DNA from: Streptomyces tsukubensis | Lineage (GTDB): Bacteria > Actinomycetota > Actinomycetes > Streptomycetales > Streptomycetaceae | Assembly: GCF_009296025.1 (NCBI RefSeq) | Contig: NZ_CP045178.1 | Coordinates: forward strand, 6,572,001-6,636,000 | DNA: 64,000 nt | Direction of reading: 5' to 3' | Part shown: positions 25,479 to 57,100 of the stretch, piece after piece | Position numbering within the stretch: the stretch's first letter is position 1 | Layout: every line of letters begins with the position of its first letter | Program-made: the position numbers and the translations under genes | Notes under the pieces: generated by a model | Told to the model about the DNA's origin: nothing | The model's input: only the letters and a program-made list of their open reading frames with translations | Database searches by the model: none

Positions 25479-25500
25479 CCGGCCGCCCCTCGGGGGGCGC

Positions 25501-25644
25501 GGTACGTACGGACACGGTGTACGCGGTACCTGGGGACACGGTCCGCGCGGCGCGTACGGACGCGGGCTGCGCGGCGCGTACGGACGCGCTGTCCGCGACA
25601 CGTACGGACACGGTGTCCGCGGCACGAGCCGGAGCGGCGGCCTG
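25501..25644. repeat. 24-bp tandem repeat array between kdpD and kdpE
   Basis: Five diverged 24-base units start at 25501, 25525, 25549, 25573 and 25597, with a decayed sixth at 25621. The shared core is GTACGGAC followed by CGG or CGC. Because 24 is a multiple of three, one frame stays open and would read an RGxYGHGV-like octapeptide, but no start codon or ribosome binding site uses it. It may be a copy-number-variable spacer in the kdpDE transcript. Confidence 0.75.
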
Positions 25645-27977: not shown

Positions 27978-28132
27978 CACGAGGCCGTGGTCGTAGCCCC
28001 GGCTGAGGTGGAGCCGGGAGCCGAGGCCGGAGACGGAACCGGTGGGTGCGTACGAGGTGAGGGGGCCGGGCCTGCGGGCGTCGGCCCCCTCGCCGTATCC
28101 GGTGTATTCCCGCTGTACACCGTCCGGCCGTC

Positions 28133-28172
28133 GCTCGCCCGCTCGCCCGCTCGCCCGCTCGCCCGCTCGCCC
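28133..28172. repeat. Five perfect GCTCGCCC octamer repeats
   Basis: GCTCGCCC is repeated head-to-tail five times. It lies in the 364-base gap between the converging DUF3159 and RCK genes, which otherwise holds only GC-rich sequence and a terminator. A slippage-prone microsatellite; no coding function is evident. Confidence 0.75.
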
Positions 28173-28293
28173 GGCCGCCGTCCGCTCGCCCGGCTGCCGC
28201 CCGTCCGTCCGCGCGCCCGGTTGCGACCGTCGCCCGTCCTCTGGAACGCCGACGGCCCGGCTGCCGGGCGCGAACGCCGGGCCCCGGGCCGTC

Positions 28294-43241: not shown

Positions 43242-43470
43242 TCAAGTCCGCCGCGAGGTGCCGCCTCCCGCCCCCCGCGTCGCCGGGGACGGGGCGTGTC
43301 CATCCGCGCCGGTCCACCGCAGCGGCCCGTACAGCAGCTCGGTGGCGCCCGGCATGAAGCGGGAACCGTGGTGGTAGACCGGGTCCATCGTGGTCACGAT
43401 CAGCCTGCCCGCGGTCGACACACGGTTCTCGTACAGCAGCACCTGCTGTCGCTCAGGGTTACCCTCGCGC
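43242..43470 (-). pseudogene. 3' remnant of an unidentified minus-strand gene
   Basis: The minus frame ending at 43242 reads QQVLLYENRVSTAGRLIVTT, then MDPVYHHGSRFMPGATELLY and GPLRWTGADGHA. This looks like the natural C-terminal domain of a globular protein, with a terminator after the stop. Further upstream the same frame is antisense to the rep gene and meaningless. The gene's 5' part was therefore replaced at about 43460-43480 by the integrative element. I cannot name the family. Confidence 0.5.
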
Positions 43471-44814
43471 TGCCGGGTCAACCACCCCGACTTCGACCGC
43501 GCACAGCAGCAGATCGAACGCCTCGGAGGATGCACCGAACCCGTACGCCTGACCGGCCACACCACCACCGTCGACACCACGACGGGTGAGGTACTGCGCG
43601 CCTATACCTCCTCCGACGAACCGACGGGCAGCCTGCTCACCGCGTGCGGCAACCGCCGCTCCTCACGCTGCCCGGCCTGCTCCCGCCTCTACGCCGCCGA
43701 CACCTACCACCTCATCCGCGCCGGCCTCTCCGGCGGCAAGACCGTGCCCGACACCGTCCGCACCCACCCCCGTGTCTTCGCCACCCTCACCGCCCCCTCC
43801 TTCGGCCCCGTCCACAACCGCCCCGACGCCCGCCCTTGCCACTGCGGCACCCGCCACGAACCCGCTGACCCTCTGCTCGGCACACCGCTGAATCCGGCGA
43901 TGTACGACTACGCGGGCGCAGTCCTCTTCAACGTCCACGCCGGGGCCTTGTGGGCCCGCTTCACCACCTACCTGCGCCGTGAGATCGCCACCCGACTCGG
44001 CCTGACCCAGAAGGCCGCCCACGCGGTCCTGCGAGTGTCCTTCGCCAAGGTCGCCGAGTACCAGAAGCGCGGCCTGGTCCACTTCCATGCCGTGATCCCG
44101 CTCGACGGCCCCGAAGGCAGCACTCAGCCCCCACCTCGGTACGCCACCGTCTCAGTGCTCACCGACGCCATCCGGGCCGCCGCCTCGCGGGTCCGCATCA
44201 CGGTCGAGTCGGACGCGGTCGGGGAACGCGAACTCGCCTGGGGCGAACAGCTCGACGTCCGCGAGATCGCCGCCTTCGGCACCGACGCCGAACTGACCGA
44301 TCAAGCGGTCGCCGCCTACGTAGCCAAGCACGTCACCAAGTCCGCCGACGCCTCCGGCACCCTTGACCGTGCCCTGTTCTGCCGTCCCTGCCCGGGACGC
44401 GGCGCCACCCTCTTGCCCCAGGGGACCCCGCTGCCGTGCACCGCGTGCGGCGGCACCGGGCAGGCCCGGCCCCTGCCACGCCTTGGCGTCGCCCGGCACG
44501 TGCGGCAGATGATCCGCACCTGCTGGGAGCTGGGCAGGCTGCCGGAGTTCGCTGGCCTGAAGCTTTGGAAGTGGGCTCACATGCTCGGCTTCCGGGGCCA
44601 CTTCTCCGCGAAATCCCGCCGCTACTCCACCACCCTCAGCGCGCTGCGTGGCGTCCGCCGGGCCTGGCGTACCGAACGGGCCGGCACGTCGCCGCCTACA
44701 TCGCCAAGTACGCCACCAAGGGCGCCGAGACCACCACCGGCACCCTCGACCGCCGCCTCCGCTTCCTCGCCGAACTCGCGGGCCACGACATCACCGACCA
44801 CGCCCGCCGACTGA
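43390..44814 (+). pseudogene. Replication initiator of a pSAM2/SLP1-type element, truncated and chimeric
   Basis: From about 43480 the frame reads CRVNHPDFDRAQQQIERLGG, CTEPVRLTGHTTT and HLIRAGLSGGKTVPD, the conserved RepSA-like initiator of actinomycete integrative elements. Zinc-type CxxC motifs (CPACSR, CRPCPG, CTACGG) and HMLGFRGHFSAKSRRYSTTL follow. The first 30 codons (43390-43479) overlap a foreign gene remnant and are not Rep, so the 5' end is lost. After AWRTERAG (about 44680) the frame leaves Rep homology and reads nonsense to 44814 because it fuses out of frame with a second rep fragment. Confidence 0.75.
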
Positions 44815-45332
44815 TCCACACCGCCTGGCACCTCGCCACCAACCGTCGGCACGCCCGCCTCCGCCTGCTCCAGTGGGCCCACATGCTCGGCTTCCGAGGC
44901 CACTTCTCCACCCGCACCCGCCACTACTCCACCACCCTCGCCCACCTCCGCGCCGAACGCACCGCCTGGCGAACCGGCCGCCCCGACACTCAGACCCCCA
45001 CCCCAGCGTCGGTTGAGACGCAGGCCGGTCAGACAGGCGGCTTTCCGGTCGGTGAGCGCGCCGGACACTCCACTGACCCGGTCGCCGGTCACCGCGATAT
45101 CACCGGTCAGCACGTGGACTCGGACACGACCCTGGTCATCTCCCACTGGCAGTACACCGGAACCGGCCTCCTACCCGAACACGATCACCTCGCCAACCTC
45201 CTGACCGCGAAACGGCAGACCCGACCCGAGCAACCACCCCGAACCCAGCACTCGGAACGCTCCGCCGTTCACCCGGTCGGTCACTCAACTGATCGGTTGA
45301 CCGGCACCGTCCGGACGGGGGCCGCCGCATGA
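44682..45332 (+). pseudogene. 3' half of a second rep gene
   Basis: This frame starts abruptly with RHVAAYIAKYATKGAETTTG and runs through WAHMLGFRGHFSTRTRHYST, repeating the C-terminal Rep domain already present just upstream (AAYVAKHVTKSADASG ... WAHMLGFRGHFSAKSRRYST). It continues through a long hydrophilic tail to 45332, where its stop overlaps the xis start. It is a second, diverged rep gene whose 5' half was deleted when the two recombined. Confidence 0.7.
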
Positions 45333-45520
45333 CCGCCAACACAGAGCTCCTCACCGTCCCCCAGGTCATGGAACGCCTCCAACTCGGCCGCACCGCCGTC
45401 TACGACCTCATCCGCTCTCGTCAGCTCACCTCCCTCACCCTCGGCCGAGCCCGCCGGATCCCCGCCCACGCCCTCACCGACTTCATCCGCACCCGCCTCG
45501 ACCAGGAAGCCGCCGCCTGA
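45329..45520 (+). CDS. xis: Excisionase / MerR-like helix-turn-helix protein
   Basis: The 63-residue protein LLTVPQVMERLQLGRTAVYD continues LIRSRQLTSLTLGRARRIPA, a typical DNA-binding excisionase of actinomycete integrative elements. It directs integrase towards excision. It overlaps the rep fragment stop (ATGA) and the integrase start, the usual rep-xis-int order, and it is the only intact gene of the element. Confidence 0.88.
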   Translation: MTANTELLTVPQVMERLQLGRTAVYDLIRSRQLTSLTLGRARRIPAHALTDFIRTRLDQEAAA

Positions 45521-46787
45521 TGATCACACCCCGCGAAACCCCCGCCTCCCGCCGAACCCGCGCCAACGGCGACGGAACCGTCTACCAGCGAAAAGACCGC
45601 CGCTGGGAAGCCGCCGACTACGTCCTCGCCCCCGGCAACACCCGCAAACGCATCCGCGTCTACGGCAACTCGCGCACGGAGGCACTGGCCAAACTGACCG
45701 AGAAGATCGCCGCCAGCAACCGCGGCGTCCCTGCCGTCACCGCCCAGGGCAGCCTGTGGGCCTTTCTTACGTACTGGCTGGAGAACGTCGCCGTCCACCA
45801 CCTCCGTGAGACCACCCACACCCGCTACACCGCCGTCGCCGAGCAGTACCTCATACCGGGCCTGAGCAGGAAAAAGGCTCACCAAGCTCACCGCCAAAGA
45901 CGTCCGCACCTGGCTCAAACCAGCTCCGCACCACCTGTCAGTGCTGCACGCCTCACCTCGACGCGGCCCGCGACGAGCCCCGCTGCTGCGCCGCCAGCCA
46001 GTGCTGCTTCAAGCTGCTCTCTCCACTGACGCTCACCTACATCCACTCCGTACTCAAGTCCGCCTTGGAACACGCGGTGCGGGAGGAGGAGATCCCGCGC
46101 AACGTCGCCCGCAACGTCCGCACCGCAGACGAAGCCCGCCAGCTCCTCGCCACCGCCCAAGGTCACCGGCTGCACGCGCTGTTCGAACTCGCTCTCCACA
46201 CCGGACTCCGCAAGGGCGAACTCCTCGGCTTGCGATGGGAAGACCTCGACCTCGACGCGGGCACCGCCGCCATCCGCCGCACCCTCCAGCGCACCACCGC
46301 AGGTGGGCTCACCACGCTGCCCACCAAGACCCGGGCCTCCGAGCGCCGCATCGTCCTCCCCACCCGCTGCGTTCAGTCGCTGAAGTTCCACTACGAGCAG
46401 CAGCAGCGCGAGGCCGAGAGCACCGCATGGCGGCACAGCGGGCAGGTGTTCACCACTGCGCAGGGCGGAGCGATCGACCTGACCAACCTCACCCGCACCT
46501 TCGCCACGCTCCTCCGCAAGGCCGGACTCCGTCGCATCCGCTTCCACGACCTCAGGCACTCGACCGCGACCCTGCTCCTGGAGCAGGGAGTCGAACTCGT
46601 CGTGATCAAGGAACTCCTCGGCCACGCCCACATCGGCGTCACCGCCACCGTCTACGCCCACGTCCGACTCCGCCTCCAGCGCCAAGCCATCGACACCCTC
46701 AGCACCGCCCTCGGCAGCCCAAAGACCACCGAGACGGCACGCTCCGACGGCGACGAACCGCCGCCCCGGAACGCCTTCGTCCGCTGA
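45520..46787 (+). pseudogene. int: Tyrosine recombinase (integrase) with two one-base insertions
   Basis: The N-terminal part (MITPRETPASRRTRANGDGT to EQYLIPGLSRK) and the catalytic part (EHAVREEEIPRNVARNVRT onward) are in different frames. Removing one A from the AAAAA at 45871-45875 and one from the AAA at 45917-45919 restores LTKLTAKDVRTWLNQLRTTC and an intact Int. Catalytic residues are present: Arg in TGLRKGELLGL, HDLRHSTATLLL, and GHAHIGVTATVYAHV with the Tyr. Two indels so close suggest either decay or base-calling error. No duplicated att site was found. Confidence 0.82.
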
Positions 46788-46821
46788 CGTTGCCGTCAAC
46801 TACTGCCGTCACCCCACGCAA

Positions 46822-46852
46822 AAGCCCCGCCAGGACACGCCTGGCGGGGCTT
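46822..46852. terminator. 13-bp hairpin between int and the immunity candidate
   Basis: AAGCCCCGCCAGG (46822-46834) pairs perfectly with 46840-46852 around ACACG, followed by a short T-containing run. It lies between converging genes, so it can terminate both. Confidence 0.75.
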
Positions 46853-46883: not shown

Positions 46884-47081
46884 TTAACTCCCGCCACTGA
46901 GTGGCAGATCTGGCAGGCTGTCCAAGAGAGCCCTCACCTCATCCTTGGTCGCCCCTACACGCGTCTGAAAGTCGCGGTCATCCCCGGTCTCAAGCACTTC
47001 CATCATCAGCGCTTCAACCAGAAAGAATTCCGCTCTAGGCATCGTGATCACGACCTGCTCCCCGCGATCCTCCACATACAT
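46884..47081 (-). CDS. Candidate immunity protein for the RHS toxin
   Basis: The 65-residue acidic protein MYVEDRGEQVVITMPRAEFF is followed by helical segments (LVEALMMEVLETGDD, TKDEVRALLDSLPD). ATG 47081 follows AGAGGACGATTCTG. It starts 13 bases after the toxin stop on the same strand. Position, size, acidity and lower GC are what is expected of a cognate immunity protein in polymorphic toxin loci. I do not recognise the immunity family, so the role is inferred from context. Confidence 0.65.
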   Translation of the reverse strand: MYVEDRGEQVVITMPRAEFFLVEALMMEVLETGDDRDFQTRVGATKDEVRALLDSLPDLPLSGGS

Positions 47082-47094
47082 CAGAATCGTCCTC

Positions 47095-50000
47095 TCACTC
47101 TGACTTGAAGTTCCTGGTGAAGTACCTGTGGCCCTCTTGAGGTGCGAAGACAGTACCACCGTCCCTCGATCCGGGGTTGCGGATCACGATTACCCCGTTT
47201 CGCCAATAGGCAGACGCACCATCGGATCGCACGCGACGCTCTCCGTTCAGGATTACACCTTCAATCATGTCGGAGAATTGTGCGCGGGTCCGAATTCCGG
47301 GGAACTCCCCCTGCTCTACAACATGCTTCTGGAAGGAGTGACCGTCCGCTCCAGCGAGCTCATCTGCTGCGAGTCGAGCTTGAAGGCGGGGGCCATCCGC
47401 AACGTTGCAGCCGCCGGAATTGTGAACGAGTACCGGAGTCTTCCCCGCCAGCACATAGTACGTGTGGAGGCCGGCAACCGTAAGGTTGTAGGTCCTCGCT
47501 TGCTTAGTGAACGGGTGGTTGCTGGCCACAGCAACCGTCTTGCCTGATGCTGTCAGCAGGGTTGCGCCCGGCTTGAGGTTCGTGGCCTTCATCCAGCGGT
47601 GTACGGACGGGGACCAGAAGGGGTGTTCGTGGGTCGCGACCAGGGTGCTTACGCCTGTGCTGGTCATCAGCGACAGCTTATTGAACTTCTTGTCGTCATC
47701 CGTGACGATAAGTCTGGTCACCTTCCGAAGGGCTGTTTTTCCAGTCTTCGGGTTCGTTGCCGTCACTTGGTCGCCGGGTCTGAGGTCTTCGATCTTTTTG
47801 GTTGATCCATCGCCCATGAGGACTTTGGTGCCGGCGAGGAAGCATTTGCATCCGGTTGCTTTGGTGCCCTTTGATTTGATCCCGTAGAGGCCGGCTAGCT
47901 CTTCTGGCAATTTAGCCAGAATCTCTTGTGCGGCGTCATAGCTGCTTGCTTCCTTGATGCATTGTGCTCGGTGGGTGATGCAGTAGGTTGCCGCTATCTT
48001 CTTCGTTTCCTCGATACTGCCGCCGTTGGCGAGGTGCTGATAGGCGGCCCGGCATCCGGCGCGTCCGAAGCAGGCTTGCGCGGTCCTGTCTCCATCGCCT
48101 ACAGGTGTATTCCAGAAGCTGTTTCCATCCGTCCCCAGATATGACGTCAGGTAGTTACTGAGCTGGGAACGGTCTTCTGTGCGGGGTTCGAGACCTATCA
48201 GGGTACGTATGCTGGACCTGCGGATCTGCCCACGTCCTGTTGCACCGGTTGACTTCGGCTGTCCGAGGCTTTGGCTGAATCGGGAAAAATTTTTGGGTGC
48301 CGTGGTGACGATTCGGAGGGGGTTGTTCTTGCCTGTTCCTGTTCCGCCGATGGGGTAGCCGTTGCCGCAGAGGTCTGGCGGACAGAGGCCGGTGGGGTCG
48401 GAGTGTGTGGAGGGGTTGTTGTTGGAGTAGGTGTAGCCGTTCATCTGCTGGGAGTCGGTGAGGTCGAGGACCGGGTCGACGGAGATGAAGCGGCCGGTGG
48501 TGGGGTCGTATTCGCGGGCGCCGAGGTGGGTGAGGCCGGTGTCCTGGGTGTCGTCGGTTCCGCCGACGAACCCCTTGCTTCCGGGCCAGTCCTTGGCTGT
48601 TTCTCCACGCGGTCCGCCGAAGGGGAGGGTGCGGCGCTGGGTGAGGGCCTGGTTGCCGGCGTTGATGGCGAGCTGGCCGGTGCCCTGGTGGTCGGCGATG
48701 GTGAACGAGAAGGTGCCGTCGTCCTTCTGGACGGCGTTCTGTCCGCCACCGAGGTCGATGTAGCGGGTGGCGCGGGGCTTGTCCGCGCCCTTGGGCAGGG
48801 TGATTTCGGTGGTGCCCAGGTAGAGGGTGGTGCCGGTCGCGGTCCGGGAGATGAGGCGATTGCCTGCGGTGTCGTAGAGGTACTCGGTGGTTTTGCTGCC
48901 TTCGGTGACCTTGCTGAGGTGGCCTTCCGCGTCCCAGGTCAGTTTCTGGCCCGGGCGGCTGGTGGTGTTGCCAACCTGGTCGTAGGTGTAGTCACTGGTA
49001 GTGGTGTCGGAGGACACGGTGGTGGTGCGGGAGGTGAGGCTGTGTGCCTGCGGTTGGCTTGGCTTGGGGTACGTGTAGGTGCTTTTGGAGTCTTTGCTGG
49101 TGTCGCCGGCGGGGTTGTGCTGGGTTTCGGTGGTGCGGTTGCCTGATTTGTCGTAGCTGTAGGACTGCCAGTAGGGGGCGGGCCCGGATATCTTTCCGGT
49201 GGGCGGGGTCGTCGTGCAGGATGTGGTGTTCTGGGTCCAGGCTTCGTTGAGCCGGCCGAGATAGTCGTAGGTGAAGCATTGGTTGTCGATGCCGCTGCGT
49301 GACGTGTCGGCCATTCCGAGGACGTTGCCGGCTTCGTCGTAGTGGTAAGCGGTGCTGCGGTCGACGCCGTTTTGCTCTTCCCTGTCCACGCGGGAAGTGG
49401 CCAGCCGCTGGGTACCCCACTCGTAGGTGTTGGTGACCTGGTTCTTCTTGCCGCCGGTGAGGTTCATCGTGTATTGCAGCGGCTTGCCGGTGAGGCTGTA
49501 GTTGGTGCCGCTCGACATGCCCTGGCCGAAGACCGCGTTGGGGCGCAGGGTCTGGTCCTCGTACCCGTATGTGACTGTGCCGCCGGGTAGGGAGCCGACT
49601 CCGGAGTAGGCGATGGCCGCGGTGAGGCCGGAGGGCTTGTAGGTGGTCTTGGTCTGGTACGTCCCCTGGAGTTTGCCTTCCGATGCCGGCACCACTGTGG
49701 CGGCCTGGGTCGGGCGGTAGAGCCGGTCGTATGCCATGACCTTGGAGGTGTAAGCCTGGCCGTCGGCGTACCGGGTGGTTTCGGCGAGCTGACCCTTGGC
49801 GCCGGCGACCGTGTCGTACACCCACTTCGCGCGCAGAGTCCCGCCGGCTGTGCCGTCGTGGGTTTCGGTTTTACGGCCGAGGTTGTCGTAGATGTTGACG
49901 AGGGTGGTGCCACGGGCGTCGGTGCTGGAGACGAGCTGGCCGTGATCGTCGTATTTGCTGGTGGTAGTTCCCTTGTCTGGGTCTACGGACTTGGTCTGCC

Positions 50001-53000
50001 GGCCGAGCTGGTCGTAGGCGTAGCTCCAGCTGTTTCCTGCGGGGTCAGTGGCTTTGGCGAGATCACCGCCGGGCGTGTACTCATAACTGATTGTGTCGAA
50101 TGGGGCGTCCGCATTGCGCTCATGGTGCTGGAGCAATTGCGTGGTGCGGCCGCGGGCGTCGGTGACGGTGGTGGTAGCGGTGGCGCCGACGGGGGGAATG
50201 ACGGTGGTGCGGTCACCGCCGTAGATAGTTTTGGTGGTGTTCAGGACGGTGCCGCCGTCGCCGTTGCCGGCGATCTGGCGGGTTTCTGTCGGGCGCCCCA
50301 TGCCGTCGAAATCGGTGCGGGTTTGGGTTTCCACGGCCAGGGAGTCGTTCGGCTCGACGAGCTTGGTGGAGGGCTTGACCGTGGCGTAGTAGGGAGCGAA
50401 CGTTTTTGTGGCCTGACCGCGTTCGTCGTAGAAGGTGTCAGTGAGGATGGTGCCGCCGTCAGGGCCCGGGGCTTGTTCCTGGCGGTTGCGCAGGAGTCCG
50501 TCGTAGAGGCTGTGGGCGGTGAGCTGTCCGCCGTTATTGTCGAGTGTTTTGGTGGTGACGGCAGTGGGTTGACCGTCGGTGGTGGTGTAGGTGAATTCGT
50601 AGTCGGGCGTTGAGGTATTGCGCCGGTTGGCCAGCCAGACTTTGCTGGAGCGGCCGAGAGCGTCGTAGGTGGTCTCGGTGATGTTGCCGTTGGCGTCGGT
50701 CAGTTTCAGCGGTAGTCCGCGCTGGGGGTCGAGGGTCTGGCTGCTGGACTGCGTGGTTGTGGCATCACCGGCCTTGGCGGGCGGTGTCGTGGTCTTGATC
50801 TGTGTGGGCAGGCCCGTGGTGGGGGTGTATGCCGTGGTGGTGGTGACACCGTCACTGCGCTTGACGCGAACGGGTGCTTGTGTGCCGTCGACCGTGATGT
50901 CGGCGGTCAGGTCCGTGCTGGTGAGGGCGCGGCCGTAGGAGTCAAAGGTGGCGCCGGTCTCCAGGTAGGTGGCCTTCGTGCCGGCGTAGCTCTTCAGGGT
51001 CGCGGTGCCGGTGGTGTCGCCCTTGGTGGGCGCCGCGCCGTAGGCACCGTTGTCGTAGGCGGTTCTGACGTCGGAGATGACGTCCTTGGAGCGGTCGGTG
51101 GCGGCGGCGCACGGCTTCGCGACCGTCTCAATGCGGGCGGTGCTGTCGAGGATGTTGGCGTCGGTGTTGGTGGCGTAGGTGGTGCGCGTGCAGGTGTTGT
51201 CAGCGGCAGTGGTGCCGTCGCCGTAGTCGTCCATCTGGGTGACGCGCCCCGCTACGGTGTCCTGCGTCGTGGCGGAAGAGGTAGTGCGCCACTTGGTTCC
51301 CGCGCCATTGTCGAGGGAGTCCCAGTTCTTTGTGGTTGAGGTGCCGGTGAGGTTGGCGGTGACGGTGCCCCAGTCGCGGACCTTTTTTGCGGTTTCGTGG
51401 TGCCAGGGGCGGTTGACGGTTTTGGACAGGACCTTGCCGTCGGGTTTGTCGAACGTGACTGTCTTGTAGGCGAAGCCTGCCGTTGAGGCGTGGTCGGTGA
51501 GGGGGTCTCCTTCCCCGGAGCCAAGGGGGACGGTGACTGTTTTTGTGCCGCCGCTGGTGTCTTTACGGTCGTCGTCCATGCCCCGCAGGTAGTAGGAGTC
51601 CTGCTGGGATTTCAGGGCGGCTCCGGCGCCTTCGCCGCCGGCTTGGACACGCACGTGGCCGTAGCCGCGCCACTGGGACCAGGTCTTCTCCTTCTCCTTG
51701 GTCAGTCCGTCGTCGTCGTCGTAATGCCAGGCGGCGCCGTCCAGGTACTGGTATTTGGTGACCTGGTCGGGGGAGCCGCCGGTGCGGTCGGTAGCGGTGG
51801 TGGAGGTGACGACATATTTGTTGAACCACGCCTTGTCCGCGGCATCCGAACCGTCACCGCCGATGTACTGGGGAAAACAGCGGCTTGTGTTCGTCTGAGG
51901 GGTCGGTAGGGCACTCCAGTCGCAGGCGGCGGTGCTGTAGTTGGCGTCTACCTGGCCGCCGGACTCGTCGGCGACGGTGGACAGACGGGCTTTTATGAAG
52001 GGCGCGTAGCCGTCGCCGGTCTTGTCGAGCCGGTTTTCGAGCTGGGTGTAGGCGAAGGTTGTCTTCGGCAGGGTGATGGCCGGTGTGTTGGATTCACCCG
52101 TGTGCTGGACGGAATCGAGCAGCAGCTGGTAATCGGTGTCCGCCATTCCCCAGCGGTGGGCGAGTTTCCAGCTGTCGACCTTGCCGTAGGTGTTGTCGGG
52201 CTTGAGGACCTGAGTGGTGACGGCGGTCAGGCGCTTGCGCGTCCAGAAAGAGGGCGACAGGCGGCCTTTATCGCATTTGGTGCCGGCCGCGCAGTTCAGG
52301 TCCCAGGGGGTGTCGTACCAGTAGAAGGCTTTGTCCTTGATGGTGGAGGCGTCGCAGGTGACGCCGCTCTGGGGAAGACAGCGTTCCGCGTTGTCGAAGA
52401 CGACTTGGGCCTGCGGCTTCTCCGAGTACATCTTCGAGGACGTGAGCCCGTAGTCGATGCGCTTGAGGTAGCCGCCGCGGGTGTAGCTGGTGTCGTCCTC
52501 GGCCTTGAGATTGCGGCCGTAGGAGTTGCTCTCTTTGCCGTAGTGGTAGGCGATGCTGTTGCCGTGGGTGTCGACGGCGTAGTCGAGATTCCACCGCCAG
52601 GCTTGTTGGCACCAGGAGCCGGCGAAGTCGCTGGCGTGACAGGGCTCGCCCGCGTTGTTGCCGTAGACGGGTGCGGTCCAGGTGGAGTCGGTGGTCTCCT
52701 TGCCGTCGCTCCACCCCGGCAGTCGGTTGTAGCCGAAGTAGTAGCGGGTGCCGTCCGGTGTGGTCAGGCGCCAGTACTCGCCATCGTTGTCCCCGTTGCC
52801 CCGGTCTGCGGATGTTAGCCGTTTGATCTTGGTGCCGTTGTCCTGCTGCAGCTTGAATTCGTCATTGCCTGCCGGGACAAGTTCGCCGCCCTTACCGTCG
52901 AAGGAGAGGAAAGCGTTGTCGTAGGCCCAGCACTGGTCGCCGGGCTTGTTGCCGTCGGCGTTCTTTTCCCCGTCCTCGGCGCACGGCTTGTAACGGCGTT

Positions 53001-54018
53001 CGATCGAGCCGGGCCACAGGTCGAAGCCGTCGCCGGCCCAGGACGCCTGATTGTTGGTGCCGCCGGTGCGGCCATCGACCGTTCCCGAGGAGTAGGACAG
53101 ACCGACATCGGGCGTCAGGCCACCGGGTACCTGGGGGACAGGCATGTCATAGGACCAACTGAAGTCACCAGTGTTCAGGTTGGTGCTCCACGCGGCGGAC
53201 GGCGACAGAGCGGTCGCTTTGTAGTCGCCCTTGTCTCCTTCGGTTGCGGCCGCTGCCATCAGCACGGTCGGCGAACCCGTACGCAGCTGGACCACATCTG
53301 CGCTCAGTGTCTGCTTTGCGGTGTCGTTGGTAGTGGCGACCGCAGTCTGGGTACGGCAGACGTCATTCGCTGTGTCGAGTACGCACGCTGGCAGTTCGAA
53401 CAACCGCATGCGGGAGGCGTAAGAACCGCCGAAAGCTCCGGCGAACGCCGAGTAGTCGACGTTGACGGCTACCTCGCCATTCTTGGCCAGTGGGGTCTTC
53501 GAGACGCCTCCTGGCCTTGCGGGGCTCTTGGCTTGCAGGGTGAACAACATGCCCTGCTGACCCGCGCGTTTGGTCATTGCGCGGTCCAGCACTCGCGCGG
53601 TGACCCTCACCGGTCCGGAGTCCTTGGAGGCGTGCGGTGCCCTGGCGGCGGTTTTGGTCACGGGAGCAAGGGTGAGTGGGGTGTCGGCAACACGGATAAA
53701 GCCGGGCTTGGCAGTTTTGCTGCCGTTCGGGACATCGACCGTCGCGACGGCGGCGTCAGGCCATTTCCTGTGAGGAGTCGTGGCGGGGGCTCTGGGGCCC
53801 TTTTGCAGGGTGCGGGGTACCGCCTTGACACTGGCGGTGACGGAGACGGGCTTCTCCGAGGCGGGCAGACCGGGCAGTTTGCTGCCGACGGCCTCAGCGG
53901 GTGGCGTAGTGATTTGGAGGAAGGTGGCGACCATGACGGCCGACAGGGCCAGCGAGGTACGGCGTAGAGCGCCGCCTCGGGGGAAGGGAACGGTGGGTCT
54001 TTTCATGCGAGTGTCCAT
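47095..54018 (-). CDS. Secreted RHS-repeat polymorphic toxin with Hint domain and C-terminal toxin
   Basis: This 2,307-residue protein starts with a signal peptide (MDTRMKRPTVPFPRGGALRR, hydrophobic core, PPAEA). An N-terminal SpvB-like region (SWSYDMPVPQVPGGLTPDVG) and many RHS/YD repeats follow, then the core-ending signature YDPTTGRFISVDP near residue 1,850. A Hint autoprocessing domain (CFLAGTKVLMGDGSTKKIED, Cys near 2,058, ending PVLVHNS near 2,198) precedes about 105 C-terminal toxin residues. The toxin has HSFQKHVVEQGEFPGIRTR, RRVRSDGASAYWR and RNPGSRDGGTVF; conserved His, Arg and Gly-Thr suggest an RNase of the BECR type (inference). GTG 54123 is an alternative start. Confidence 0.85.
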   Translation of the reverse strand: MDTRMKRPTVPFPRGGALRRTSLALSAVMVATFLQITTPPAEAVGSKLPGLPASEKPVSVTASVKAVPRTLQKGPRAPATTPHRKWPDAAVATVDVPNGSKTAKPGFIRVADTPLTLAPVTKTAARAPHASKDSGPVRVTARVLDRAMTKRAGQQGMLFTLQAKSPARPGGVSKTPLAKNGEVAVNVDYSAFAGAFGGSYASRMRLFELPACVLDTANDVCRTQTAVATTNDTAKQTLSADVVQLRTGSPTVLMAAAATEGDKGDYKATALSPSAAWSTNLNTGDFSWSYDMPVPQVPGGLTPDVGLSYSSGTVDGRTGGTNNQASWAGDGFDLWPGSIERRYKPCAEDGEKNADGNKPGDQCWAYDNAFLSFDGKGGELVPAGNDEFKLQQDNGTKIKRLTSADRGNGDNDGEYWRLTTPDGTRYYFGYNRLPGWSDGKETTDSTWTAPVYGNNAGEPCHASDFAGSWCQQAWRWNLDYAVDTHGNSIAYHYGKESNSYGRNLKAEDDTSYTRGGYLKRIDYGLTSSKMYSEKPQAQVVFDNAERCLPQSGVTCDASTIKDKAFYWYDTPWDLNCAAGTKCDKGRLSPSFWTRKRLTAVTTQVLKPDNTYGKVDSWKLAHRWGMADTDYQLLLDSVQHTGESNTPAITLPKTTFAYTQLENRLDKTGDGYAPFIKARLSTVADESGGQVDANYSTAACDWSALPTPQTNTSRCFPQYIGGDGSDAADKAWFNKYVVTSTTATDRTGGSPDQVTKYQYLDGAAWHYDDDDGLTKEKEKTWSQWRGYGHVRVQAGGEGAGAALKSQQDSYYLRGMDDDRKDTSGGTKTVTVPLGSGEGDPLTDHASTAGFAYKTVTFDKPDGKVLSKTVNRPWHHETAKKVRDWGTVTANLTGTSTTKNWDSLDNGAGTKWRTTSSATTQDTVAGRVTQMDDYGDGTTAADNTCTRTTYATNTDANILDSTARIETVAKPCAAATDRSKDVISDVRTAYDNGAYGAAPTKGDTTGTATLKSYAGTKATYLETGATFDSYGRALTSTDLTADITVDGTQAPVRVKRSDGVTTTTAYTPTTGLPTQIKTTTPPAKAGDATTTQSSSQTLDPQRGLPLKLTDANGNITETTYDALGRSSKVWLANRRNTSTPDYEFTYTTTDGQPTAVTTKTLDNNGGQLTAHSLYDGLLRNRQEQAPGPDGGTILTDTFYDERGQATKTFAPYYATVKPSTKLVEPNDSLAVETQTRTDFDGMGRPTETRQIAGNGDGGTVLNTTKTIYGGDRTTVIPPVGATATTTVTDARGRTTQLLQHHERNADAPFDTISYEYTPGGDLAKATDPAGNSWSYAYDQLGRQTKSVDPDKGTTTSKYDDHGQLVSSTDARGTTLVNIYDNLGRKTETHDGTAGGTLRAKWVYDTVAGAKGQLAETTRYADGQAYTSKVMAYDRLYRPTQAATVVPASEGKLQGTYQTKTTYKPSGLTAAIAYSGVGSLPGGTVTYGYEDQTLRPNAVFGQGMSSGTNYSLTGKPLQYTMNLTGGKKNQVTNTYEWGTQRLATSRVDREEQNGVDRSTAYHYDEAGNVLGMADTSRSGIDNQCFTYDYLGRLNEAWTQNTTSCTTTPPTGKISGPAPYWQSYSYDKSGNRTTETQHNPAGDTSKDSKSTYTYPKPSQPQAHSLTSRTTTVSSDTTTSDYTYDQVGNTTSRPGQKLTWDAEGHLSKVTEGSKTTEYLYDTAGNRLISRTATGTTLYLGTTEITLPKGADKPRATRYIDLGGGQNAVQKDDGTFSFTIADHQGTGQLAINAGNQALTQRRTLPFGGPRGETAKDWPGSKGFVGGTDDTQDTGLTHLGAREYDPTTGRFISVDPVLDLTDSQQMNGYTYSNNNPSTHSDPTGLCPPDLCGNGYPIGGTGTGKNNPLRIVTTAPKNFSRFSQSLGQPKSTGATGRGQIRRSSIRTLIGLEPRTEDRSQLSNYLTSYLGTDGNSFWNTPVGDGDRTAQACFGRAGCRAAYQHLANGGSIEETKKIAATYCITHRAQCIKEASSYDAAQEILAKLPEELAGLYGIKSKGTKATGCKCFLAGTKVLMGDGSTKKIEDLRPGDQVTATNPKTGKTALRKVTRLIVTDDDKKFNKLSLMTSTGVSTLVATHEHPFWSPSVHRWMKATNLKPGATLLTASGKTVAVASNHPFTKQARTYNLTVAGLHTYYVLAGKTPVLVHNSGGCNVADGPRLQARLAADELAGADGHSFQKHVVEQGEFPGIRTRAQFSDMIEGVILNGERRVRSDGASAYWRNGVIVIRNPGSRDGGTVFAPQEGHRYFTRNFKSE

Positions 54019-54135
54019 CGCTGCAGGGCACCTTGGCTCTATGGGCAACCATGGCGCAGGCTGAGGGGGTGGGTCGTGCGCAGTGCCGGGATGCGCTTCC
54101 AGCCGAACGGTTGTGAAGCGCACCCCGTGGTGCTG

Positions 54136-57100
54136 TCAGGTGCCCGCGGGCACCTGGGTCGGGATGTCTTCAAAGGAGCCGGCGAGTTCTTCGACCTGGC
54201 TGTCGTTGAGTGCCCCCTGGAAGGCCCAGACGTCGTCGATGGCTCCGGGGAAATAGCTGCCGGTGCTGGTGCCGGTGGTGCTGGCTCCGACCTGGAGTGT
54301 CTTGGCCGCCTTGTAGGTCAGGACGTTGTCGGCCCAGGCGATCAGGTCTTCGCAGCCCGCGGTGTCGGCGTCGCCGTCACCGTTGTCATCACTGCAGGCG
54401 ACTTCCTGCAGGACACCGTTGACGTAGAGGCGTGCCTCTTTGGCGAACCCGTCGTATGCGACGGTGAGATGGTTCCAATCACGGACATCATAGAATTCGG
54501 TGTTGGCCACCTGTTTTGTGCCGGCGTCGCCGGTGTCCTTGTCCGCCGTGGCCAGTTCCCAGCGACCCAGTCCTTCGGGGTCCTTGGCATCGGGGACGAA
54601 GCGGAGGTCGAAGGCGCTGCGGCTGGTGCCGGGGGCGCTGACGACGCTCGCCGCATGCCCGGGGGTGGCGGCGGCCTGAGCCCAGGCGGAGACGGTGAAG
54701 CTGGCGCTGGTGTCCACGGGCACGAAGGCCGTCGTGGCGTAGGCGTCGGTGCCGTTCAACTGAAGTCCGCTGAAGCCCATCGTTCCGGCGCCGAGTGTGG
54801 CCTTCCCCTTCAGCGCCATCGCGTTCCCCTCCTGGGAGGAGTCGGGCGAGGTGGCGGGGGTACCCGTGGTCTCTTCGAACTGCCAGCGTCCCTTCACCAG
54901 GGGGCGCTGTTTGAACAGCTGCTGGACTTCCTCCGCGGAGACGGGCCGGTCGTAGAGGCGCACGTCGTCGATGGTGCCGGGGAAGAAGTTCTTGGTCTGT
55001 CCGCTGTAGTCGCCGGCGCCGATGTACATGGACTGGTCCGCGTAGAAGGCGCCGGCGAGGGTCGTTGATCCGGCCTTGGCGCCGTTGACGTACAGGGTGA
55101 GGGTGTTGGCGACGGTGTCGTGGACGCCGACGAGGTGGGCCCATTCACCGGCGCGGGCGGTGGCGCCTTCAGGCTGCATCGCTCTGATGACGGAGGCGTC
55201 GGGGCTGTCGGAGGCGTACTGGTTGACGACCCACCGGTCGTAGGCGGAGGAGTAGTAGAGCTCGAATCCGGGCCGGTCCTTGCCCGCCTGGGAGGTGATG
55301 ATGGCCGCGCCGTCCGGTTTCTTGTCGAGTTTCGCCCAGGCGGAGACGGTGAAGCTGCGTGAAGTGTTGACGTGCGGCCCGCTCGTCTGGCCGATGCGGC
55401 CATAGGCGTCGCTGCCGTTGAAGTGGGCGGCCTTGCCCACGACGCCGGGCTCCCCGGCGTTGACGCCGCCGTGGTACTGGGCGGGCAGCACTCCGCCGTG
55501 GCCTTCGATTTGTTTGGCGGTGGCGGGTTCGTCGAGGGGGAAGAGGGCGACGGCAGGGCGTCCGGGGTCACCGACGGCCTTGTGGGTGTAGAGCTTGTCG
55601 ATCTCGTCCTGGGCGAGGGGCTTGTCGAAGATCTGAACGTCGTCGATGCTGCCGGGGAAGAACGCGCCCGGCGCGCCGTTGTAGGAGCCGGCGCCGAGCT
55701 GGAGGCCGCGGCGGGCTTCCCAAGGGGTGCTGTAGGGGGTCTGGCCGACCAGCTTGCCGTTGACGAACAGTTCCAGGACGTTGCGGACGGAGTCGTAGGA
55801 GCCGGCCAGGTGAGTCCACTTGCCGGTACTCGCGTCGCCGGGTTTGTCCGCCATGACACGGGTGACGCCCGCGCCGGCCTCGTCGGCCTTGTACTGGTTG
55901 AAGACCCACCGGTCGTAGGCGGCGGAATAGTACAGCTCGAATCCCGGGGCGTAGTTGCCGGGCTGGCTGGCGATGACCGCCGCGTCGGTGGGCATGGTGG
56001 AGAGGCTGGCCCAGGCCGAGACGGCGAAGCCGCCGCTGGTGTTGACGACTGGCAGGTCGGTGGAGGCATAGCCGTCGGTGCCGTTGAAGGTGACGGCCGT
56101 GCCCGTGGCGCCGGGTTCGCCGGGGGTTGCTCCGCCGTGCAGGTCGGCGGTGCGGGCCGGGGTGGAGCCTTCGGCCTGTGCGGCGCCGGGGGCTTCGTCG
56201 AGCTGCCAGGTCGCACGGTCGGGCTGTCCTGCCTTGACCCGGTACTGGTAGGTACGGATCTCGCTGCCGTTGCCGGCCGCGTCGAATGCCTGGGCGGTGA
56301 CGAAGTTCAGGCCGGTCCGCGCGGGCAGGATTTTCGCGGTCTTGGCGGCGCCGGCCTTGGTGGTGATCTTGTTTTTCGATGAGGGGTCGTTGTTGATGCC
56401 GTACCAGTAGGAGGTCACGTCACTGTCGGCGGCCTTGATGTCGAAGAAGCCGTACTTGCCGACCCCGTCGAACCACGGGTCGTCCGGGTTCTCCGGGTCG
56501 GAGGCCGGATACTCACCCGAGGTGATCGAGGGAGCGTGCGGGACCTTCGTGTCGTAAGTGAAGTAGCAGGCGGTCGGGTCCCCGGCGTAGGACCAGGGCG
56601 AGTACTGCGCTCCGTCGTAAGAACGCACGTACCAGTTGACGAGCTTGTTGGCCGTCACGTTCTTGGGCAGGCTGATGGAGAAGTCGGAGCCGGACTTCTT
56701 CGAGGATGTTCGGGCCGGGCTCCACCGGGTGATCAGGCCCTTGCCGTCGCCCGCGTCCCACTTGGCCTGGAACTGGACCGACACACTGTCGCCGTCGGGG
56801 TCGGTGACATGGTTTGCGTGGATCTTTCCCAGGGAGCGGACGTGCGGGGCGCTGCCGGACTTCTTGCAGGTGCCGCCGTACTCGCTGTTCAGCTGCGACA
56901 TCTTGATCTGCGGGGGTGGGCGGTTGTACTTGACCCGCAGATACGCCTTGTTGGAGAACCGCTTCCAGCCCATGCCGTCCGACTCGCTCGCGGCCCGCAG
57001 GCCGAACGTCATGGAGGCCGACTTGCTGGTGGCGGCGCTCTGCACGGCGGACTTCACGTCGAACTCGGCGTCCTTGGCCGCGCACCCGTTATAGCCGTAG

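Follow-up and report, generated by a model that had tools for sequence, protein, structure and literature searches.

How does a polymorphic toxin gene come by a new toxic end together with its antidote? The question is raised by a stretch of 64,000 nucleotides from Streptomyces tsukubensis (contig NZ_CP045178.1, positions 6,572,001 to 6,636,000; hereafter the window), in which a long RHS–Hint toxin gene ends in a short C-terminal module, the toxin tip, and is followed by a 65-codon open reading frame (ORF), a candidate immunity gene. Judged by sequence, this pair looks like a cassette with an integrase-site-like boundary that lies beside a mobile element. Because the same parts recur in one order in other Streptomyces, and because tips fused to an RHS gene in one genome lie displaced in another, it is probable that pSAM2-like elements integrate inside RHS genes, replacing the toxin tip plus its immunity gene.

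The boundary between the Hint domain and the tip carries a 17-bp core, CACACGTACTATGTGCT, in which the arms GCACA and TGTGC enclose the spacer CGTACTA. Inverted arms around 7 nt are the expected look of a tyrosine-recombinase crossover site, and by this resemblance the Hint–tip boundary is a putative site for a tyrosine integrase. A 21-nt version of the core, with up to three mismatches allowed, has a single match in the window against an expectation of 0. When fused and displaced junctions were compared at six loci, similarity ended upstream at one point, leaving the shared core, and continued downstream through the codons for TPVLVHN. The longest shared string measured 17–26 nt within pairs and 17–51 nt between loci; since strings within pairs are no longer than those between loci, the core is a feature constant throughout the genus, not one specific to a pair. 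The region upstream of displaced copies has in common an element-end sequence around ACCTGCGAAAACGCAGGT, and these copies have an in-frame stop that either abuts the core (often as CGTAG) or lies no more than 19 codons away.

Of 392 Streptomyces genomes, 169 carry the exact 17-mer, and a reversed core pattern, used as a control, was absent (0) among the matches listed for the same genomes. Among 197 genomes drawn from the class, nine carry the core (7 of 16 assigned to Streptomyces and 2 of 181 others). All 76 distinct copies in the loci examined read HTYYVLA; upstream of them lies a Hint domain in frame in 47 cases, another open frame in three and neither in 26. Of these 26, 25 match the element-end pattern and the last (L095) does so by eye, a pattern that is not exclusive to them, as it also matched three of the 47 Hint-type copies. 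Among 19 junctions found by protein searches alone, nine cores are exact, eight have one mismatch and two have two mismatches. The second tyrosine codon of the core is TAT in 16 of these 19, compared with 9 of 101 tyrosine codons in the window's RHS gene, an excess that is not a probability because the 19 loci are related. The core also appears, with Hint-like residues upstream, in a 43,570-base IMG/VR contig filed as viral (L167), whose tip resembles the GIY-YIG-like tip of L123 and L130.

We surveyed core pairs in 30 regions over 9 kb (10 chosen for toxin or integrase matches, 18 chosen for two cores and 2 others) plus a Streptomyces lushanensis locus (L031). The 26 adjacent same-strand pairs comprised 19 in which a Hint-type core precedes a displaced one, one displaced–displaced, one displaced–open and five in which both cores follow a Hint or open frame. 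In the 19 Hint-to-displaced pairs, whose cores are spaced 1,445–13,666 bp apart, the order is RHS–Hint–core–tip–immunity gene–integrase–element end–core–displaced tip, with the integrase antisense in every one. A RepSA gene, an excisionase and a tyrosine integrase lie together between the direct repeats in 14 of the 19, as expected of actinomycete integrative elements (AICEs) of the pSAM2 type. The integrase frame spans at least 431 codons in 13 of these 14 full elements (that of L139 is broken), and eight of the 14 have a TraB-like (FtsK-type) gene at E ≤ 1e-5, two of the eight being weak.

The chassis are related and the tips variable, and locus comparisons show tips shared across diverged RHS–Hint chassis. 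The family of the window's integrase is found in the corresponding position after tips unrelated to the window's own. In S. lushanensis, a second, orphan tip that starts with the last Hint residues lies past the integrase, and for 8 of 24 displaced tips the sample contains a relative fused to Hint, at 46–100% identity. The genes that follow fused and displaced relatives look alike by eye, so tip and immunity gene seem to travel together. Of 42 listed tips, 20 were scanned; 12 had no Pfam match and eight matched Fic, DUF7587, Colicin-DNase/WHH, GIY-YIG, EndoU, Tox-HNH-EHHH, Scabin-like or Ntox21. On a Streptomyces goshikiensis plasmid (NZ_CP108578.1; L168), two stacked integrase modules adjoin two displaced-type cores; one module has an FtsK-type gene and a replication initiator, and the stretch shown has no annotated RHS gene.

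Turning to the pair in the window, the initial annotation described an RHS protein of about 2,300 residues with a signal peptide, RHS core, Hint domain and short C-terminal module. The coordinates and domain matches agree (SpvB, RHS repeats, RHS-associated core and pretoxin Hint in Pfam and NCBIfam scans), and the N terminus is signal-peptide-like by eye, in line with a secreted protein; starting instead from the GTG at 54123 would lengthen the frame to 2,342 codons. The description of a small acidic ORF with a strong ribosome-binding site 13 bases after the toxin also stands: the ORF begins 13 nt past the RHS stop, AGAGGA precedes its ATG and its product has a net charge of −8. Its 32 homologues, from a search that accepted only lengths of 0.55–1.75 times the query, all measure 51–68 residues (29 of them 63–68), and against six relatives synonymous changes per site exceed nonsynonymous ones, from 0.07 versus 0.05 in the closest to 0.61 versus 0.19. 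The uniform lengths and the excess of synonymous change show that the ORF is a real gene.

A wider profile gathered 329 proteins, of which 120 were listed. No Pfam domain is present in any of these 120, in keeping with the earlier remark that the sequence was not recognized as a named family; named members among the 120 are nearly all 'hypothetical', with one UniRef name beginning 'Chaperone-modul'. The ORF is placed by profile in an unnamed candidate immunity family that extends from Streptomyces RHS genes to Proteobacteria. Its structural model, a β-hairpin plus three helices (predicted local distance difference test score 90.4), has no convincing match among solved structures. Four relatives (P0059, P0060, P0061 and P0146) are about twice the usual length, at 118–136 residues, and are possibly tandem domains.

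Co-occurrence with related toxin modules in other genomes, on which the proposed pairing hinged, was found repeatedly. With a profile built from actinobacterial members only, we scanned 850 ORFs at 26 loci taken from a one-genome-per-species scan. A homologue at E < 1e-4 occurs in 21 of the loci, in every case on the downstream side of the toxin frame: in 20 it is the next gene, and in L052 it is the second ORF, 211 nt downstream. Another three loci have weak homologues (L039, L048 and L049; E 0.006–0.24) and two have none (L038, where the contig ends, and L051). All 24 profile matches below E = 1 sit shortly beyond the end of the toxin frame. In the 392 Streptomyces genomes, the immunity gene adjoins all seven strong toxin places (in six genomes), and of 12 immunity places in 11 genomes, seven are with the toxin, two behind a different tip and three without a toxin. 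By these counts the candidate immunity ORF adjoins the toxin module beyond chance, and the layout originally read as a toxin–immunity pair is supported; toxicity of the tip and its neutralization by the 65-residue protein would follow from that layout. Genes of 97–107 residues downstream of related toxins (L046, L047, L048, L049 and L039) share the immunity C-terminal motif (profile E 3e-5 to 0.24) and may form a wider superfamily with this family.

The tip has no family match in Pfam, NCBIfam or PADLOC, and 21 toxin sequences gave no match to Pfam up to E = 10, a comparison in which Pfam's coverage of Ntox35 and Ntox41 was not checked. The solved folds nearest to its model are the BECR-fold ribonucleases (RNases) CdiA-CT from Escherichia coli O32:H37 and colicin D. 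In colicin D and the CdiA-CTs, this fold consists of N-terminal helices followed by a β-meander. We predict that the tip is a BECR-fold, metal-independent RNase, probably one that cleaves tRNA. A match to a non-toxic domain, which would have spoken against a toxin, did not appear.

Behind the immunity gene and convergent with it, the window carries a tyrosine integrase, an excisionase-like gene and RepSA (Table 1). The element to which they belong looks decayed, because the integrase is spread over two frames and RepSA is overlapped by a second, partial rep match (44676–45002); the tip in this genome is therefore probably fixed. We found no TraB match for this element. A 118-nt direct repeat accompanies the second rep match at and behind the RepSA end (44570–45194), suggesting a chimaeric or decayed element. 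The G+C content is 59% in the tip, 57% in the immunity gene, 64% in the RHS body and 69% in the window. Tip and immunity gene are 93–97% and 91–94% identical, respectively, to those of L028, L030 and L031, compared with 42–67% for the Hint domains. The genome contains only one more exact core (C2:6546978-6546994; L128, L148), 72.5 kb to the left of the window's core and in the same orientation. Element-end sequence precedes it, and the displaced tip that follows has RHS-fused counterparts, 82% identical, in two other genomes; another integrase and a different rep fragment lie nearby. Of ten ORFs scanned between the two cores, three are metabolic or transport genes (lactone oxidase, aldehyde dehydrogenase and solute-binding protein) and seven have no match, some perhaps not being genes. 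We do not claim the intervening stretch as one 72.5-kb element.

Table 1. Features of the RHS locus and adjoining element remnant, in window coordinates
Feature	Position	Strand	Remarks
RHS–Hint polymorphic toxin gene, 2,307 aa	47095..54018	-	ATG at 54018, stop ending at 47095; Pfam SpvB, RHS_repeat, PT-HINT; Rhs_assc_core (NCBIfam)
Pretoxin Hint domain, about residues 2056-2202	47413..47853	-	PT-HINT E 1.2e-19 over residues 2073-2201
Putative att core CACACGTACTATGTGCT	47450..47466	-	Codes HTYYVLA of Hint end; inverted arms, 7-nt spacer
Toxin tip, 107 aa plus stop	47095..47418	-	BECR-fold RNase predicted
Immunity gene, 65 aa	46884..47081	-	β-hairpin plus three helices predicted; homologues, co-occurrence
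Hairpin then TTTT after immunity gene, terminator-like	46820..46850	-	Read from sequence, unscored
Tyrosine integrase, catalytic part	46065..46787	+	Phage_integrase E 8.5e-29; convergent with immunity gene, frame differs from N-terminal part
Integrase N-terminal part, other frame	45520..46029	+	Phage_int_SAM_3 E 0.002 (below cut-off); homologous to N-terminal parts of other elements
Excisionase-like helix-turn-helix gene	45329..45520	+	HTH_17 E 8.5e-10; 90% identical in L088
RepSA replication initiator, pSAM2 type	43390..44814	+	RepSA E 3.1e-143

On the other side of the RHS gene, a LamG protein of 973 residues with four concanavalin-like stretches is encoded on the same strand (54136–57057, −), ending 117 nt before the RHS ATG, and possibly forms one operon with it. 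Short tandem repeats with 24-nt and 8-nt units lie at 25491–25625 and 28132–28179, respectively.

Elements in icd are a familiar case of integration within a gene that replaces its 3′ end. In the chain of events that we consider likely, a BECR RNase tip and its cognate immunity gene would arrive as one cassette on a pSAM2-like AICE, whose tyrosine integrase would recombine the 17-bp core of the element with an identical core at the end of the Hint-coding part of an RHS gene. The RHS frame would then read on into the incoming tip and immunity gene, and the resident tip, with its own immunity gene, would end up beyond the element's far end, behind a stop codon. The immunity protein would most likely cover the active site of the tip. 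Excision would restore the old tip. We hold the toxin–immunity pair taken alone with more confidence than the whole chain, and reversible excision with less. A broader reading, whose chances we regard as evenly balanced, is that Streptomyces conjugative elements are mobile toxin-tip exchangers that use any RHS gene with a Hint core: weapon and antidote would be switched in one reversible, site-specific step, the old pair would be shelved as a restorable cassette, siblings free of the element would become targets and the element would be kept by the weapon it installs.

Evidence from the window and from some junctions weighs against integrase-driven exchange. The window's integrase is split over two frames, its open frame of 325 codons falling short of that in 13 of the 14 full elements; the 64-kb window has no second core; and, just as three TAC junctions (L009, L033 and L034) have no integrase match in the flank examined, neither do TAT junctions L005, L006, L008 and L010. 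Homologous recombination could instead swap tips, with the Hint end upstream and integrase remnants downstream as arms and the integrase as a passenger. It is the published model for enterobacterial rhs (PMC2935791), and it suits the arrays L143, L144 and L145, where 72–166 codons ahead of the core stay open and partly Hint-like in displaced tips, and integrase is present as short pieces or is absent altogether. These arrays probably arose in this way, so both routes may operate. As a general explanation, homologous recombination is quite unlikely: the 26 core copies without Hint start at the core behind shared element-end sequence, integrase, excisionase and rep keep one order in 14 pairs, and the TAT codon is retained despite codon bias.

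A different possibility is that the pair is correctly read and that an ancestor chanced to acquire an unrelated AICE downstream of its RHS locus and passed it on. The decayed integrase and rep and the lack of a far end in the window would fit, but the same convergent integrase lies behind unrelated tips (L012, L027 and L064) and in many genomes, and in others' annotation it follows a HINT polymorphic toxin gene on a Streptomyces xanthophaeus plasmid and, in Streptomyces sp. NBC_01343, a long gene whose core has one mismatch, which makes coincidence very improbable. It is also unlikely that the tip is another enzyme rather than an RNase, or the 65-residue product a SinI-like regulator rather than an immunity protein. 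The tip's missing family match, fold-comparison Z scores that are only middling and weak SinI matches in 15 of 33 immunity relatives point that way; against them, the top solved folds are RNase toxins, profile and fold comparison both pick 8ey4, and the small gene trails the toxin in both RHS and proteobacterial loci. Integrase-driven exchange of a toxin tip with its antidote thus remains the reading we favour.

Until now, homologous recombination and predicted episomal pools of tips have been the explanations offered for how tips are acquired with their immunity genes. Because core, integrase, excisionase and replication gene share one repeated order in one genus, the part played by an integrase is now directly testable, by polymerase chain reaction across att sites. 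If the mechanism holds, RHS genes would be a recurrent docking site for AICEs, and conjugation would be tied to killing and immunity in Streptomyces. The 17-mer is a simple handle for finding toxin–immunity pairs, and the immunity family connects actinobacterial RHS toxins with proteobacterial ones. We found no description in the literature of an integrase-plugged toxin tip with its antidote; tip displacement is a known phenomenon, and the proposed agent and mechanism are new.

The predicted fold of the tip resembles that of the BECR-fold CdiA-CT toxins and colicin D and of the predicted classes Ntox35 and Ntox41 (PMC9086364, PMC3482391). The tip is like Ntox35 (H, KH, S/T) in having H and KH in its N-terminal portion and a T in its C-terminal portion; it comes near Ntox41 ([RK]H, [KR], [ST]xxP), with a TxxxP rather than TxxP spacing. 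Ntox41 is recorded with RHS, FilH and HINT, with no immunity listed. The tip differs in having no Pfam match to any such class and in the cognate immunity family attached to it.

As in Rhs displacement and the Vibrio effector–immunity arrays (PMC2935791, PMC5361080), acquired tips displace old ones, which pile up behind the gene, and tip and core evolve apart. Rhs C-terminal displacement was ascribed to homologous recombination with circular intermediates (PMC2935791), the authors of the Vibrio study state that there is no evidence for an integrase (PMC5361080), and the earlier proposals include circular intermediates and an episomal tip pool (PMC2935791, PMC5361080). In contrast to these cases of homologous or illegitimate recombination, a defined core, an integrase, an excisionase and a replication gene accompany the swap described here. 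Several features agree with those reported for pSAM2-like AICEs in PMC3218068 and PMC9513070: RepSA, a small helix-turn-helix excisionase, a tyrosine integrase, direct repeats at both ends, accretion of several elements and, in 8 of the 14 full elements, a TraB-like translocase. The sites of the reported AICEs are mostly tRNA genes and some protein genes such as rlmN (14 of 51 in PMC9513070), and the string RHS is absent from the main texts of both surveys, the site table of PMC9513070 lying outside that check. Unlike the AICEs described there, the elements considered here would have their site inside a toxin gene and would bring a replacement tip together with its immunity gene.
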